From Candidatus Nitrosocosmicus arcticus (GTDB lineage: Archaea > Thermoproteota > Nitrososphaeria > Nitrososphaerales > Nitrososphaeraceae): DNA of 64,000 nt. Below are positions 43,958 through 51,575 of this stretch, piece by piece; the stretch's first letter is position 1; each line of letters opens with the position of its first letter. A program made the position numbers and the translations under genes. The notes below the pieces were generated by a model. It made no database searches and had not been told where the DNA came from. It saw only the letters and a list, made by a program, of their open reading frames with translations. Location of the stretch: positions 248,001 to 312,000 of the forward strand of contig NZ_ML675578.1 in assembly GCF_007826885.1 (NCBI RefSeq), written 5' to 3'.

Positions 43958-46129
43958 TTAAAAATCTAAAAATAAACTAAAACTAAACGTGGCGCCTTGA
44001 CCATGCTTATTGTTACTACCCCAGATATTCCCACCATGAGCCTCAATTATATTCTTTGAAAGATATAAGCCCAATCCTGTTCCTTGGAATGATCTTGAGG
44101 CGAATTTTGTAAAAAGCCTTGAGAGCATCTCCTTATCAATTCCTATACCATTATCTTTTATAGAAACAATTACAAATGGTTCTTTTTGATCATTTTTATC
44201 TGTAATAGTGTTCTTCTTTTCAACAGTTATAGATATAATTCCTTCATCTTCTGAAATGAATTTAAGAGAATTTTCAATTAGATTATAGATCACTTGACCT
44301 ATTTTTGTTTTATCGGCGTTTACCAAATATTCTTGATTAAATCTATGATCGAATTCAAATATTATATTATTGTTCTTATCTCCTTTCTTAAGCTTATTTT
44401 CAAAATCCTTAACAATATTTAAAATCAAATGATTTAGACTAAATTTTTCTTTTTCACATCTAAATAATTTACCCTCAATTCGAGTTACATCTAAAATTTT
44501 TTCAGTTAGAATTTGTAATTTCTTTGAATCGTTAATGACTATATCAAGCAATTTCCTTTGTTCACTATCTTTTAATTTATCTCTTACATGTTCTGTTAAA
44601 CCAATGATGGGTGTTATGGGTGTCCTTAACTCATGAGCAACTATATCTATAAACTCCTTTTGCATTTTATCATGGAGTTTAAGATGGTCGTAGGCCTCCT
44701 GTAGTTGATCATACATTTCTGATTGATTCCATAAATTATCAAATATCGATACATATGATAGTGCAGTGGATTTACTTTCGATAAATAACGATAAACCTAC
44801 TGCATGCACAAAACTGTCATTTGAATCGTCTTTTATTTCTATTAACATAGTTTTTTCTCTATCAAGTATGGTAATTCGAATTATGTGTCTAAACTTGGAT
44901 TGCAAGCTCCTGAATTCGATGTGAGGACAGTTTAATTTTATTTGCTTAATGGTGGTTTGATTACTATCTTTGATTTCGTTATGAAGGAATTTCACTTTTA
45001 TCCCTTTTGATGCCAATTTGTCTAAAATCTTGAGAATTCCAACAGCTTCAATCCTAAAAAACCCATTGTCAGACGGGACTATTATCAATACCTCTCTTTT
45101 GACATTTTTTATTGAATCAAACATTAATTTAAGAGATTCTTTTGAATCGGGAATTATCCTGGTGTTACTATAATGTCCGTTCTCTATATCGTTAATTCTA
45201 TCTTCAGCTTCAATGCCTGATTTCCATGACTCCTTGAAGATCATATTGTAGTGATTAAGGTACAAGGAGTCATTACTGCTTAGTAGATTAGTGACCATTT
45301 TTCCATTTTCCATTTTTTCAATCGTAGAATTTAGCATTTTATCACTTAACGCAAAACTTGGTAGGGGTACATTATCTACATGACGCATCTTAATCCCTTC
45401 CTCTAAAAAAAGTTTTGCTAAACTAGCTTCGTCCTTATTACTAATTGATGCAATCCATTTAATTCCCTTATGATCTCCGTTACTATGTTTTCTTAATACT
45501 TCCTTATACGGTCCAAAAAAATCGTTATAGATCAATTGCATCCCGCCTGTAGTAGAACAAATATACATTTCATTAGACTTTTGAGCAAGTTTTATGATCC
45601 TTTTTGAAATTTCATTTCCATCTTCTAATATTTCTGTTTTGATTGGCTCTATGCCTTCTTCTATTTCTCTTATTTTAAGGTCAGCAGGTATTGAATTTTT
45701 CCAGAAGGTATCAAAAATGTATTGCTGTTGTTCCACAATCTCTTTTTCTTTGCTATATAGTAATTGATTTAAATATTGTTTTTCTTGTAACAATGATGTT
45801 CCTACAAATTCTGATTCACTCACAGCGATAGCTCCTTTTAGTCCATCCAAGTGCCTCAATTCATCAACATATTGTCTTAATTCTTTACAATAACGAATAT
45901 TATCTTGAGTGATCTCGGCAATAAATCTTATTTTCACCCCCCTGGTTCTTGCTTTAATGTAATTGTCTTTGTAAACACTAAATTCCATAACAATGTATGG
46001 TCCGTTTTTATCCGTACAAAGGTCGAGTTTTATTTTGGCATTCTGAAGTTGCTTTTCCCCGTATGAAACGGTATCTTCGATACCGCGTAAAATCTTTGTA
46101 TTTTCAGGAATAAAACTCGTGTCACTCAA
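43958..46129 (-). CDS. large sensor histidine kinase
   Basis: A 723-residue soluble kinase. The first 470 residues form a multi-module sensor with three similar units around residues 10-110, 170-280 and 330-440, reminiscent of TrmB/PLD-like effector domains (ARTRGVKIRFIAEITQDN; LASKGIKVKFLHNEI). A coiled linker follows. The H-box has H499 in VAHELRTPITPI. The ATP domain has N in NLIENSLKF, G1 in KDNGIGID and G2 in FQGTGLGLYLSK. No membrane segment, so it senses a cytoplasmic signal. A shorter protein at 50469-51575 shares the sensor but lacks the kinase. Convergent with the dead receiver-reductase fusion, its likely former target. Confidence 0.9.
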   Translation of the reverse strand: MSDTSFIPENTKILRGIEDTVSYGEKQLQNAKIKLDLCTDKNGPYIVMEFSVYKDNYIKARTRGVKIRFIAEITQDNIRYCKELRQYVDELRHLDGLKGAIAVSESEFVGTSLLQEKQYLNQLLYSKEKEIVEQQQYIFDTFWKNSIPADLKIREIEEGIEPIKTEILEDGNEISKRIIKLAQKSNEMYICSTTGGMQLIYNDFFGPYKEVLRKHSNGDHKGIKWIASISNKDEASLAKLFLEEGIKMRHVDNVPLPSFALSDKMLNSTIEKMENGKMVTNLLSSNDSLYLNHYNMIFKESWKSGIEAEDRINDIENGHYSNTRIIPDSKESLKLMFDSIKNVKREVLIIVPSDNGFFRIEAVGILKILDKLASKGIKVKFLHNEIKDSNQTTIKQIKLNCPHIEFRSLQSKFRHIIRITILDREKTMLIEIKDDSNDSFVHAVGLSLFIESKSTALSYVSIFDNLWNQSEMYDQLQEAYDHLKLHDKMQKEFIDIVAHELRTPITPIIGLTEHVRDKLKDSEQRKLLDIVINDSKKLQILTEKILDVTRIEGKLFRCEKEKFSLNHLILNIVKDFENKLKKGDKNNNIIFEFDHRFNQEYLVNADKTKIGQVIYNLIENSLKFISEDEGIISITVEKKNTITDKNDQKEPFVIVSIKDNGIGIDKEMLSRLFTKFASRSFQGTGLGLYLSKNIIEAHGGNIWGSNNKHGQGATFSFSLFLDF

Positions 46130-47289: not shown

Positions 47290-48162
47290 GTGGCGAAAGT
47301 CATAGCATTCCATTCGTACAAAGGAGGGACAGGTAAAACCACACTAGCAGTAAACCTTTCTGCAAATCTAGTGTCAAAGGGTTACAATGTTCTGCTTATT
47401 GATATGGATGTCTATGCTCCAAGCTTATATGTGTATTTTGATATCCAACCCAAGAAATGGATTAATGATTACTTGAATGACAAAATTTCCTTTTGTGATT
47501 CTATTTATGATTTCTCTCATGTTATTGAGGAGTTTCATTCAGGTACACTGATCAAGGACACTTGTGGCTCATTTCATGCTGTGTTTTCTAATCCTTCAAA
47601 ACAAGAAATAACCGATTTAGATTCAGTCATGAGGAAAGACTCATCAAAGTCCCAAATGTTAAAAAAGATGTTATTTTTAAAAGAAACAGGTATTGCAGAA
47701 ACAGATTATGATTTTATCATACTGGATACAAGTCCTGGCATTCGATATTGGTCAATTAATTCATTGGCCATTTCAGACACCATCTTTCTGTCTCTAAAGA
47801 TGGATAATATAGACATAGAAGGTACTAAACACATGGCTATGGATGTGTATGGTTCTTTTACAAGTTATGGAACTACATCTTATCTTTTGTTGAATCGAGT
47901 TGCAGGCTATTGCGAACCACCGGTACTCCTCGATTCAAGCAACTCTGTTTATGGTGAAAATTCTTCCTCTTTTAGCGCTTTAGTGTTAGAACAAAATGAA
48001 ACAATTAAGAATCTAGAAAAGTTAATAAAAATGGATGTTGTTTCGATGATTCCATGTTATTGTGATATGCAATTTGAAAGGCAGGAATATTTGACTGCCT
48101 TGAAAAATCCTGATCACCCTTTCTCAAAAAAAATCGATGAATTGTCAAAGAAAATTGAGTAG
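47290..48162 (+). CDS. ParA/MinD-type ATPase
   Basis: A 290-residue SIMIBI-class ATPase. The deviant Walker A is K11-G-G-T-G-K16-T-T. LLIDMDVYAPSLYVYF is the switch I region and FIILDTSPGIRYW is Walker B/switch II. Such proteins position cargo or regulate partners through ATP-dependent dimerisation. The GTG at 47290 is preferred over the TTG-rich upstream frame because of the TATA box at 47263 and because family members begin a few residues before the P loop. No ParB or plasmid gene is nearby. The next gene, a KaiC-like/cyclase fusion, follows after 98 bp. Confidence 0.85.
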   Translation: MAKVIAFHSYKGGTGKTTLAVNLSANLVSKGYNVLLIDMDVYAPSLYVYFDIQPKKWINDYLNDKISFCDSIYDFSHVIEEFHSGTLIKDTCGSFHAVFSNPSKQEITDLDSVMRKDSSKSQMLKKMLFLKETGIAETDYDFIILDTSPGIRYWSINSLAISDTIFLSLKMDNIDIEGTKHMAMDVYGSFTSYGTTSYLLLNRVAGYCEPPVLLDSSNSVYGENSSSFSALVLEQNETIKNLEKLIKMDVVSMIPCYCDMQFERQEYLTALKNPDHPFSKKIDELSKKIE

Positions 48163-48260: not shown

Positions 48261-49685
48261 ATGAAACATTTCCCTGGTAATGACATCATAAATAGAAACT
48301 TAAAGCAACCTGATCTTGGAGTATATCTCATTTATGGGCCGAAGTCATCGGGAAAGTTACATTATTGCAATAATTTTATATTAAATGGTCTAACAGACGG
48401 AGTTTTTTGTATTTGTATCAGTTCTTCATTCATAGAAAAAAAATATAAGAGCATTTTCTTTTCGGGACAGGAGATCTTATGTGTTAATTTGAAGGTGTTG
48501 AATCCATATACTTTGAACGGATACGATAGGTCCGATTTCGATAATAATCAAGCGCTCATGCATCTTTTTGAAGAAATTAAACAATTAATTGACGCCCATT
48601 CAAATCGACCTGTATACCTCGTGTTAAGTTCATTGACCAACTTTCTAGAAAATTTTAATGAACAAAATGTAATCAAATTTGTAACCAGTTTAGTCTTTCT
48701 TCTCAAAAACTATGAGATAAATTCAATATTTACGATCGATAATACAGACCCTAATTCATCTATATTGGTTAATAAAATAGCACATCTTTTTGATGGACTG
48801 CTTGAAACCAAGTTACCTTCTGATTCTTCCCAACCCCAAAAGTACATAAAATTAGTATCTATGTTTGGGAATAATAATTGCAAATCTGATTGGATAAGTT
48901 ATACACTAGACAATAACAATATTATCACGTCTATTAGTAATCAAACTAGATTAATTTGCAATTTATGTAAGGAGCAGATTAATGAATTCCCAGTATTCTA
49001 TCAAGACCTTTCTTTTCATCAGGAGCATTTAACCGTCTATATGAAATTAGTTAATTTCTACGGAAATTCTAAAATTGCGGAATTTGGATCATCTGGAATA
49101 TTATATGCAAATTTCTTCTTTATTGATATCGTTGGATTGTCAGATCCGTCTTTGTCAGTAAAAAATCAAATAGAAAAGATCCAGATTTTAAATAACTTGA
49201 TCAATTCATGTAATTCTTATAAGAAAGACCGAGACAAGAAAATCCTTCCTACTGGAGACGGTATGGCGATAGGTTTCTTGACTGATCCTAAACTACCTGT
49301 AGAATTAAGCTTGGAACTTCACAAGAAACTGGGAATACATAATTCAAATTCGTCAAATCAATCTGTAATTCAAGTGCGTATAGGAATTGGTTCGGGTCAT
49401 GTATTTATAGTCAATGATTTGAATGATAACCAAAATTTATGGGGTCCAGGCATAATACTTGCTAGGAGAGTTATGGATTTGGGGGATCAAGGCCATATTT
49501 TGATCGAAGGAGGTATTGCAAATAGCTTATTTAGTATTGATAATGAGTTAAAGAAAGACATACATTATCTTGGGAATTTCTGCATAAAACATAATCAAAA
49601 AATTGATGTTTATTCTCTATATAATCAATATGCAGGCAACGCAAAGATTCCACAAAAATTCTTGGATCAGCGTAAATCAATTTGA
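48261..49685 (+). CDS. KaiC-like ATPase fused to class III nucleotidyl cyclase domain
   Basis: A 474-residue two-domain protein. Residues 15-220 resemble a KaiC/Rad55-type P-loop ATPase: VYLIYGPKSSGKLHYC with K32, where the usual Thr/Ser after Lys is Leu (L33), and PVYLVLSSLTNFLE near Walker B. A cysteine pair (CNLC) sits in the linker. Residues 280-455 form a class III adenylate/guanylate cyclase domain: metal Asps D289 (FFIDIVG) and D333 (PTGDGMAIGF), exactly 44 apart, then RIGIGSGHVF and GPGIILARRVMDLG. The Asn usual before the catalytic Arg is Ile. It may make or sense a cyclic nucleotide. Part of the signalling cluster. Confidence 0.78.
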   Translation: MKHFPGNDIINRNLKQPDLGVYLIYGPKSSGKLHYCNNFILNGLTDGVFCICISSSFIEKKYKSIFFSGQEILCVNLKVLNPYTLNGYDRSDFDNNQALMHLFEEIKQLIDAHSNRPVYLVLSSLTNFLENFNEQNVIKFVTSLVFLLKNYEINSIFTIDNTDPNSSILVNKIAHLFDGLLETKLPSDSSQPQKYIKLVSMFGNNNCKSDWISYTLDNNNIITSISNQTRLICNLCKEQINEFPVFYQDLSFHQEHLTVYMKLVNFYGNSKIAEFGSSGILYANFFFIDIVGLSDPSLSVKNQIEKIQILNNLINSCNSYKKDRDKKILPTGDGMAIGFLTDPKLPVELSLELHKKLGIHNSNSSNQSVIQVRIGIGSGHVFIVNDLNDNQNLWGPGIILARRVMDLGDQGHILIEGGIANSLFSIDNELKKDIHYLGNFCIKHNQKIDVYSLYNQYAGNAKIPQKFLDQRKSI

Positions 49686-50468: not shown

Positions 50469-51575
50469 ATGCCCGTAGATTATGGCATAAAGGAAGTCAA
50501 TGTAAATCATACCCTTGATGAAGCCATAAATTTAATATTTAAAATATTTTCCAATACAGAGCGACATTTAGAAATAATTATAGATCATGATTGGTTATGC
50601 CATTTAGTGGAGAAATCATCAATTCTTACACTTTTCAGGAAATTAAAATTGCGGAGTATTGATATCAAGATCGTAGTCGAAATTAACAAGAAGAATGCTA
50701 ACTATTCGAAGCGACTAATGAAATTTTCTGATATACGACATTCAGATGGACTAGAAGGTTGCAGCTTTAGAAACGAACAATCCTACTGTTTCTGCCATAT
50801 CCCAGAAAATGAAATGAGCGATCAGGGGCAGAAAATCGAACCGCTGGAGAAATTGGCCCAGCTTTTCTATATCGATAACATGCATTTTGTCAATCAACAA
50901 GATTTTTTATTTAAACATCTATGGGATGATTCCGTTCCAGCAAGGGAAAAAATAACTGAAATTGAAAAAGGTGTAATGGAGGTCATCTTAAACCACGAAC
51001 CAAAATCAGAAATTGACATCAATTCAAATGAAGTACTTTTTCGCATAGTGGAATCTTGCGTAGATCAAATATTGATATTAATTCCCTCAACTCCTCTCTT
51101 TTGGGATTTTTATAATAGCAGGCTGCTTGTTTCAATCTCAAGGATGTTAGTCAAAGACGTGACGGCGAAGATCCTAATTCATTTGGAAGATGGACAAATA
51201 GCCATAAAAGATGAAATACGATATAAACTCAAGGAATTATCTCAGGATTTAGATATTAATACTAATTTTTTCTCAAAAAAAATTCCCCAATCTCATCTAT
51301 CAATAATTATAGACAATGTTGTTTTAGTAGAAATTGATTACAAGAATGAAAAATCTATTCTTTCCAAAAACGAACTGAACCCGATAGTTTCCTTTTCCAT
51401 TAATGATACTCGAGTATCGTCTTCAACGTCAGTTTTTGACATATTGTGGATACAATCTGATTTTGAAAGACAAAAAAAGATTAAACAAACCTATTTTGAT
51501 ATTTTTAAAGGATTCAATATGAAAAGCGAAAAATATAGTAGAGATTGGAATTTTGAAAAGAAAAGTAACAAATAA
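50469..51575 (+). CDS. kinase-less relative of histidine kinase sensor region
   Basis: A 368-residue soluble protein. Residues 60-100 (SIDIKIVVEINKKNANYSKRL, FSDIRHSDGLEG), 150-180 (FVNQQDFLFKHLWDDSVPAREKI) and 325-350 (SSTSVFDILWIQSDFERQKK) match successive parts of the sensor of the 723-residue kinase at 43958-46129. It ends just before the region where that protein has its H-box. There is no histidine or ATPase domain. It may be a decoy, a ligand-binding regulator or a co-sensor for the kinase. Confidence 0.75.
   Translation: MPVDYGIKEVNVNHTLDEAINLIFKIFSNTERHLEIIIDHDWLCHLVEKSSILTLFRKLKLRSIDIKIVVEINKKNANYSKRLMKFSDIRHSDGLEGCSFRNEQSYCFCHIPENEMSDQGQKIEPLEKLAQLFYIDNMHFVNQQDFLFKHLWDDSVPAREKITEIEKGVMEVILNHEPKSEIDINSNEVLFRIVESCVDQILILIPSTPLFWDFYNSRLLVSISRMLVKDVTAKILIHLEDGQIAIKDEIRYKLKELSQDLDINTNFFSKKIPQSHLSIIIDNVVLVEIDYKNEKSILSKNELNPIVSFSINDTRVSSSTSVFDILWIQSDFERQKKIKQTYFDIFKGFNMKSEKYSRDWNFEKKSNK

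Follow-up and report, generated by a model that had tools for sequence, protein, structure and literature searches.

The window analysed here, a 64,000-nucleotide stretch of the Candidatus Nitrosocosmicus arcticus genome (2.64 Mb in 22 contigs), harbors on its forward strand an ORF (48261..49685) that begins with an ATG codon and encodes a 474-aa protein, with Pfam matches, homologs and purifying selection all in support of the gene. The protein comprises three predicted domains, a treble-clef-like module sitting between KaiC-like and class III cyclase-like halves. The KaiC/RecA-type domain spans residues ~18-228 (48312..48944) and contains a degenerate Walker A motif (GPKSSGK-L) and S123 in Walker B; the treble-clef zinc-finger-like domain, recognized from conservation in the family and HMM comparison, covers residues ~231-272 (48951..49076) and includes C233, C236, H253 and H256; and the class III nucleotidyl-cyclase-like domain, in which D289, D333, R403 and K443 are kept, occupies residues ~281-467 (49101..49661), all on the forward strand. 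Upstream, across a gap of 98 bp, lies a co-directed gene (47290..48162) for a 290-aa partner of the MinD/ParA type, an assignment that follows from its deviant Walker A motif, KGGTGKT, and its match to Pfam AAA_31 (1.1e-23). The Pfam-annotated neighbors in the window are this ParA gene, a histidine kinase and a small SCO4226-like protein.

The initial annotation presented the protein as a KaiC-like ATPase fused to a class III cyclase domain and suggested HMM comparison with both families, which bears out the fusion. Residues 18-204 match PF06745 (KaiC ATPase) with 31.5 bits against a cut-off of 26.6, and residues 286-453 match PF00211 (Guanylate_cyc) with 26.6 bits against 21.9. A profile of 30 homologs detects KaiC crystal structures (E 2.6e-25) and, used at full length, the cyclase Ma1120 (E 9.9e-6); a profile built from the cyclase domains of 40 family members detects Ma1120 at E 1.8e-10, and 39 of 40 cyclase-family members match PF00211 individually (E 0.01). 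Given the profile matches to KaiC structures and to Ma1120, neither half is a chance similarity. AlphaFold models had very low confidence, with a mean pLDDT of 41 for the full protein (six close rows) and 38 for residues 229-474 (four close rows), so that the fold assignment rests on sequence homology. The two-domain homology of the initial annotation stands, but the annotation overlooked the zinc finger, the ParA partner, S123, the lack of the KaiC Glu pair and the L329/N392 pair described below.

In the KaiC half, Walker A reads GPKSSGK32-L33, with Leu directly after the Lys, as originally noticed, and the Walker A Thr missing. Walker B is YLVLS123SL, with Ser at the usual Asp position, and S56-F57 stand where KaiC has its catalytic Glu pair. 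Both GK[TS] and the Walker B Asp are kept in 35 of 44 homologs, and the EE pair is absent among the commonest residue pairs listed for these 44 sequences. The Walker B Asp is lost in all four readable Nitrosocosmicus members and retained in most other genera; this loss falls on a single tree branch that unites the four Nitrosocosmicus sequences with 100/100 support. Walker A is broken separately (GKR/DK) in the L075/L076/L078/L079/L054 group, the exact join of which is uncertain on account of long branches. The decay of the ATPase motifs looks like an event of apparently separate lineages, the Nitrosocosmicus clade and the L075/L054 group, and D, D, R and K of the cyclase site are kept in every broken-ATPase protein sampled in family alignment A3. 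To judge from these motifs, most relatives have Walker A and Walker B intact and lack the KaiC catalytic glutamates, and in Nitrosocosmicus the Walker motifs are broken too.

The Pfam search found one KaiC domain and no tandem RecA domains of the CI-CII kind present in circadian KaiC, and the protein falls outside circadian KaiC by the NCBIfam KaiC equivalog model, scoring 17 against a cut-off of 408 bits. The KaiC half is best read as a predicted nucleotide-binding regulator that would be a pseudo-ATPase in Nitrosocosmicus. The proposal of a RecA-type switch is accordingly doubtful for this genus, in which none of three residues, the Walker A Thr, the Walker B Asp or the catalytic Glu, is retained. 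By itself, degeneracy of a KaiC domain has precedent: PMC5847659 describes inactivated KaiC (iKaiC/MEDS) domains in Nitrososphaera and Nitrosocosmicus response regulators.

The module between the two halves is laid out as C233-x2-C236 ... F252-H253-x2-H256, followed by Y260-x-K262-L263. C233 is present in every one of 44 homologs and C236 in 40 of them; the third and fourth positions vary among His, Asp and Cys. The module shares the CxxC ... H/D ... C/H spacing of the LIM, TRASH, YHS and VATC treble clefs, but the models of these families match weakly, every one below its curated cut-off (LIM gives 15.1 bits against 22.9 for the window domain, and the best TRASH match, from a standalone relative, 21.5 against 27), and the module is followed by a conserved K-L-x3-Y-G motif. 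We infer that this treble-clef-like module binds metal.

The same zinc finger is present at the N-terminus of several histidine kinases encoded beside ParA genes (E down to 2.4e-8), as found partly through ParA-centred searches; examples next to ParA paralogs of the same subfamily are L142 2592-4058, L143 5120-6595 (-), L145 2706-4121, L148 5559-7028 (-) and L140 5222-6658 (-). A zinc-finger profile search of the genomes of the family also yielded standalone ORFs of 50-90 aa, many of them within ParA clusters (L139 4003-4206, L055 3201-3374, L056 3639-3809, L043 5901-6068 and L044 6264-6452). The standalone ORF touches the ParA gene in L139 and is separated from it by 71 bp in L055 and 88 bp in L056. 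Other standalone ORFs, for example those of L175 and L176, lie away from any ParA gene, and at the search threshold none was found near the window gene.

The metal Asps of the cyclase-like half, D289 and D333, are spaced 44 residues apart, exactly as initially reported. Alignment of the motif NLWGPGIILARR to Ma1120 places I399 at the transition-state Asn position and identifies R403 as the transition-state Arg, in agreement with the original reading of an Ile in place of the Asn. The same alignment puts L329 at the position of the base-specifying Lys (D-4) and N392 at that of the base Asp (G-3). The profile, the two metal Asps and the transition-state Arg are those of a class III cyclase; the Asn and the base Lys/Asp, or their GTP counterparts, are missing. 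Among 40 diverse family members, D289, D333, R403, K443, H444 and W394 are invariant (40/40), position 329 is Leu in 35, position 392 is Asn in 35, and position 399 is Ile or Val in all. As it appears from the alignment, L329, N392 and I or V399 are a fixed alternative signature across this family of ammonia-oxidising archaea, and K443 is, by its position, a putative phosphate-binding Lys. The replaced Asn, to which weight was originally given, is not decisive for activity, because Ma1120, an active adenylyl cyclase, naturally has Ala at this position and is inactivated by substitution of Asn for it (PMC4215837).

Seven other PF00211 proteins encoded in the same genome retain the base Lys and Asp and have Lys in place of the transition-state Arg. 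The base-residue change is therefore specific to the family of the window protein, which, given the differences at Lys, Asp and Arg, is not simply the local kind of cyclase. Three genes of the same genome, with Lys/Asp kept and Arg replaced by Lys, join the cyclase-like domain to a C-terminal response-regulator-like segment (L095 1372-2526, L097 1342-2544 and L099 937-2100 (-)). The sole cNMP_binding match in the genome lies in L103 196-1872 (-), the product of which continues into thioredoxin-reductase-like sequence.

Compared with the G100 homolog, the nearest relative at 88% identity, dN/dS is ~0.11 for the KaiC half and ~0.04 for the cyclase half; in this comparison the cyclase half is the more strongly constrained by purifying selection. 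For more distant members of the genus dS is saturated, but every comparison with the window gene still gives the lower pN/pS for the cyclase half. The initial annotation had left a choice between cyclic nucleotide chemistry and a nucleotide-sensing remnant of it. The invariant D, D, R and K (40/40), together with the cyclase dN/dS of ~0.04, favor a preserved, remodelled site over a decaying remnant, and the best reading of this half is that of a preserved two-metal nucleotide site with a predicted alteration of base recognition.

The initial annotation had named the lack of relatives with the same two-domain architecture as grounds for rejecting it; such relatives exist. In a class sample of 400 genomes, the KaiC-zinc finger-cyclase architecture is present in 43 of 62 Nitrososphaeraceae genomes, as counted by hand, and was found in none outside this family. 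The gene is patchy within the genus, several members being without it, and a search of genome contigs with the window protein alone returned four near relatives, with the nearest contigs coming mostly from Candidatus Nitrosocosmicus MAGs. In one MAG, the homolog (L033 4196-5619) is split across two overlapping frames, a sign either of misassembly or of a broken gene. At a strict profile threshold, the cyclase-like family was detected in 34 of 398 genomes of a phylum sample, all from families f1 and f2. Nitrosopumilaceae-type genomes (f2) encode zinc finger-cyclase proteins without KaiC (L055, L056, L057) as well as cyclase-like domains joined to other C-terminal regions. The remodelled cyclase-like domain with differing C-terminal regions occurs in other ammonia-oxidising archaea at L058 4197-5396 (-), L069 4686-5882, L070 4412-5821, L087 3505-5070 (-) and L071 3671-5014 (-); the L087 protein additionally has an MG2-like N-terminal part. 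Weak phmmer overlaps had hinted that Nitrosopumilaceae proteins of ~400 aa might carry a permuted KaiC domain C-terminally, a candidate that was rejected when Pfam showed the cyclase domain only in the one protein scanned (L058). No relatives were found in plasmids or phages by tblastn with the cyclase half, nor in viral contigs by a pattern scan. The window protein matches no PADLOC model, whether for Pycsar (PycC) or for another anti-phage cyclase, and nothing in PHROGs, and a defence or phage origin was rejected on these grounds.

The link to ParA extends well beyond the window. Among 47 distinct zinc finger-containing loci with enough flanking sequence, a ParA of the same subfamily is adjacent in 39; in 36 of these it immediately precedes the zinc-finger gene in the same orientation. 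ParA is not adjacent in the remaining eight loci, one of which has it at 2 kb and several of which are mutual close relatives. None of the 24 cyclase-like loci without the zinc finger has ParA beside it. The Fisher test gives 2e-12 for this difference, a value that was computed without regard to relatedness and, the 47 loci being related, overstates their independence. With 39 of 47 against 0 of 24, the association with ParA tracks the zinc finger and not the cyclase domain. Elsewhere, ParA copies often adjoin histidine kinases.

Our preferred explanation, to which we assign about an even chance, is a ParA-linked signalling protein that combines a KaiC regulator, a treble-clef adaptor and a cyclase-like two-metal output with altered base recognition. 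The treble clef would serve as the docking site for the product of the upstream gene, the ParA/MinD-type ATPase, or for a partner that the two proteins share. Docking, together with nucleotide binding or oligomerization of the KaiC half, would then set the dimerization of the cyclase-like domains, and the dimer would be the conserved output, its two-metal site binding an NTP with non-canonical base recognition and probably turning it over. In Nitrosocosmicus, the KaiC half would act as a scaffold or nucleotide sensor rather than as an ATP-hydrolysing switch. In the main rival explanation, which we consider a serious possibility although one well short of even, the cyclase-like domain would sense NTP/NDP without catalysis: binding of metal and nucleotide at the dimer interface would switch the oligomeric state and signal through ParA, and no cyclic nucleotide would be made. 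The joint replacement of the base Lys, the base Asp and the transition-state Asn throughout the family fits a non-catalytic nucleotide binder, and the adjoining KaiC half is already without catalytic residues. Yet simple nucleotide binding should not demand that both metal Asps, an Arg and a C-terminal Lys be invariant in 40 of 40 members, and Ma1120 is active although it likewise lacks the Asn (PMC4215837).

An ordinary adenylyl or guanylyl cyclase under the control of the KaiC domain, making cAMP or cGMP, appears distinctly improbable. Such an enzyme would be in keeping with the above-cut-off match to PF00211, with the retained metal Asps and Arg and with the other PF00211 proteins and the one cNMP-binding protein encoded in the genome; it is hard to reconcile with the replacement of the purine-selecting Lys/Asp pair by Leu/Asn in 35 of 40 members, a change that is peculiar to the family of the window protein, as paralogs in its own genome retain both residues, and the only cNMP_binding match is fused to a thioredoxin-reductase-like protein. 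The degraded Walker motifs of the genus, the absence of the gene from several of its members and the frameshift-split copy in one MAG could be taken as signs of a decaying gene, or of a chance two-domain similarity, with no conserved role. This reading is scarcely credible and is already contradicted by the 43 genomes with full-length homologs, by the low dN/dS of each half, by invariant active-site columns and by a conserved operon. Beyond the preferred ParA-linked protein with altered base recognition, a bolder version, which we advance tentatively as rather unlikely, is a lineage-specific class III-derived enzyme of ammonia-oxidising archaea whose signal product would be neither cAMP nor cGMP and which the treble-clef adaptor, the KaiC-type domain and the ParA/MinD-type ATPase would control in soil lineages, amounting to spatially organised nucleotide signalling.

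Each component has known counterparts. The archaeal KaiC-like hubs, as described in PMC5847659, are similar in having a single RecA-type KaiC-like domain within a signalling protein and broken catalytic motifs in this genus; the partners named there are REC, HalOD1 and PAS domains, as opposed to the treble clef and class III cyclase-like domain of the window protein, and the paper nowhere uses the word 'cyclase'. Ma1120 of Mycobacterium avium, the closest solved relative of the cyclase half, likewise has the two metal Asps and the transition-state Arg but no Asn (Ala in Ma1120). It recognizes the base through K101 and D157, where the window protein has Leu and Asn, and does not share the signature N-x-W-G-P-G-I-I-x-A-R-R-V-M of the window family. 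The upstream gene resembles MinD/ParA ATPases in its KGGTGKT deviant Walker motif and AAA_31/ParA profile but, as far as local gene pairing goes, is paired with treble-clef signalling proteins in place of the ParB- or MinE-type partners of known MinD/ParA proteins. Mycobacterial cyclases such as Rv0386 carry a class III cyclase and a P-loop ATPase in one chain; going by their general description, they differ from the window protein in ATPase class, domain order and accessory domains. A partial literature search, for KaiC with cyclase or cyclase with Thaumarchaeota, returned no published description of the family. The individual kinds (KaiC-like hubs, class III cyclases, ParA ATPases) are known, and the literature search gave no description of their combination.

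The evidence suggests an uncharacterised nucleotide-signalling switch in soil ammonia-oxidising archaea. It defines a concrete module, in which a conserved, remodelled cyclase site shares one chain with a KaiC-type domain and one operon with a ParA/MinD-type ATPase, and the zinc-finger module of which is also carried by histidine kinases. The family offers a direct route to asking whether ammonia-oxidising archaea use a cyclic nucleotide signal and, should they do so, which one.

Some further genes recur in these neighborhoods. The window encodes a 368-aa protein without a Pfam match (50469-51575, +) that lies beside the gene across the genus and resembles the sensor portion of kinases like the nearby one at 43958-46129 but has no kinase domains. 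Another ParA paralog is accompanied by a protein of ~210 aa that has a single hydrophobic stretch and an N-terminus rich in Lys and Arg (L141 5143-5775, L144 3996-4628 (-), L147 3665-4297 (-), L149 3460-4083 (-) and L159 3735-4367 (-)). In L149, a similar-looking ~210-aa protein adjoins the KaiC-zinc finger-cyclase gene itself.
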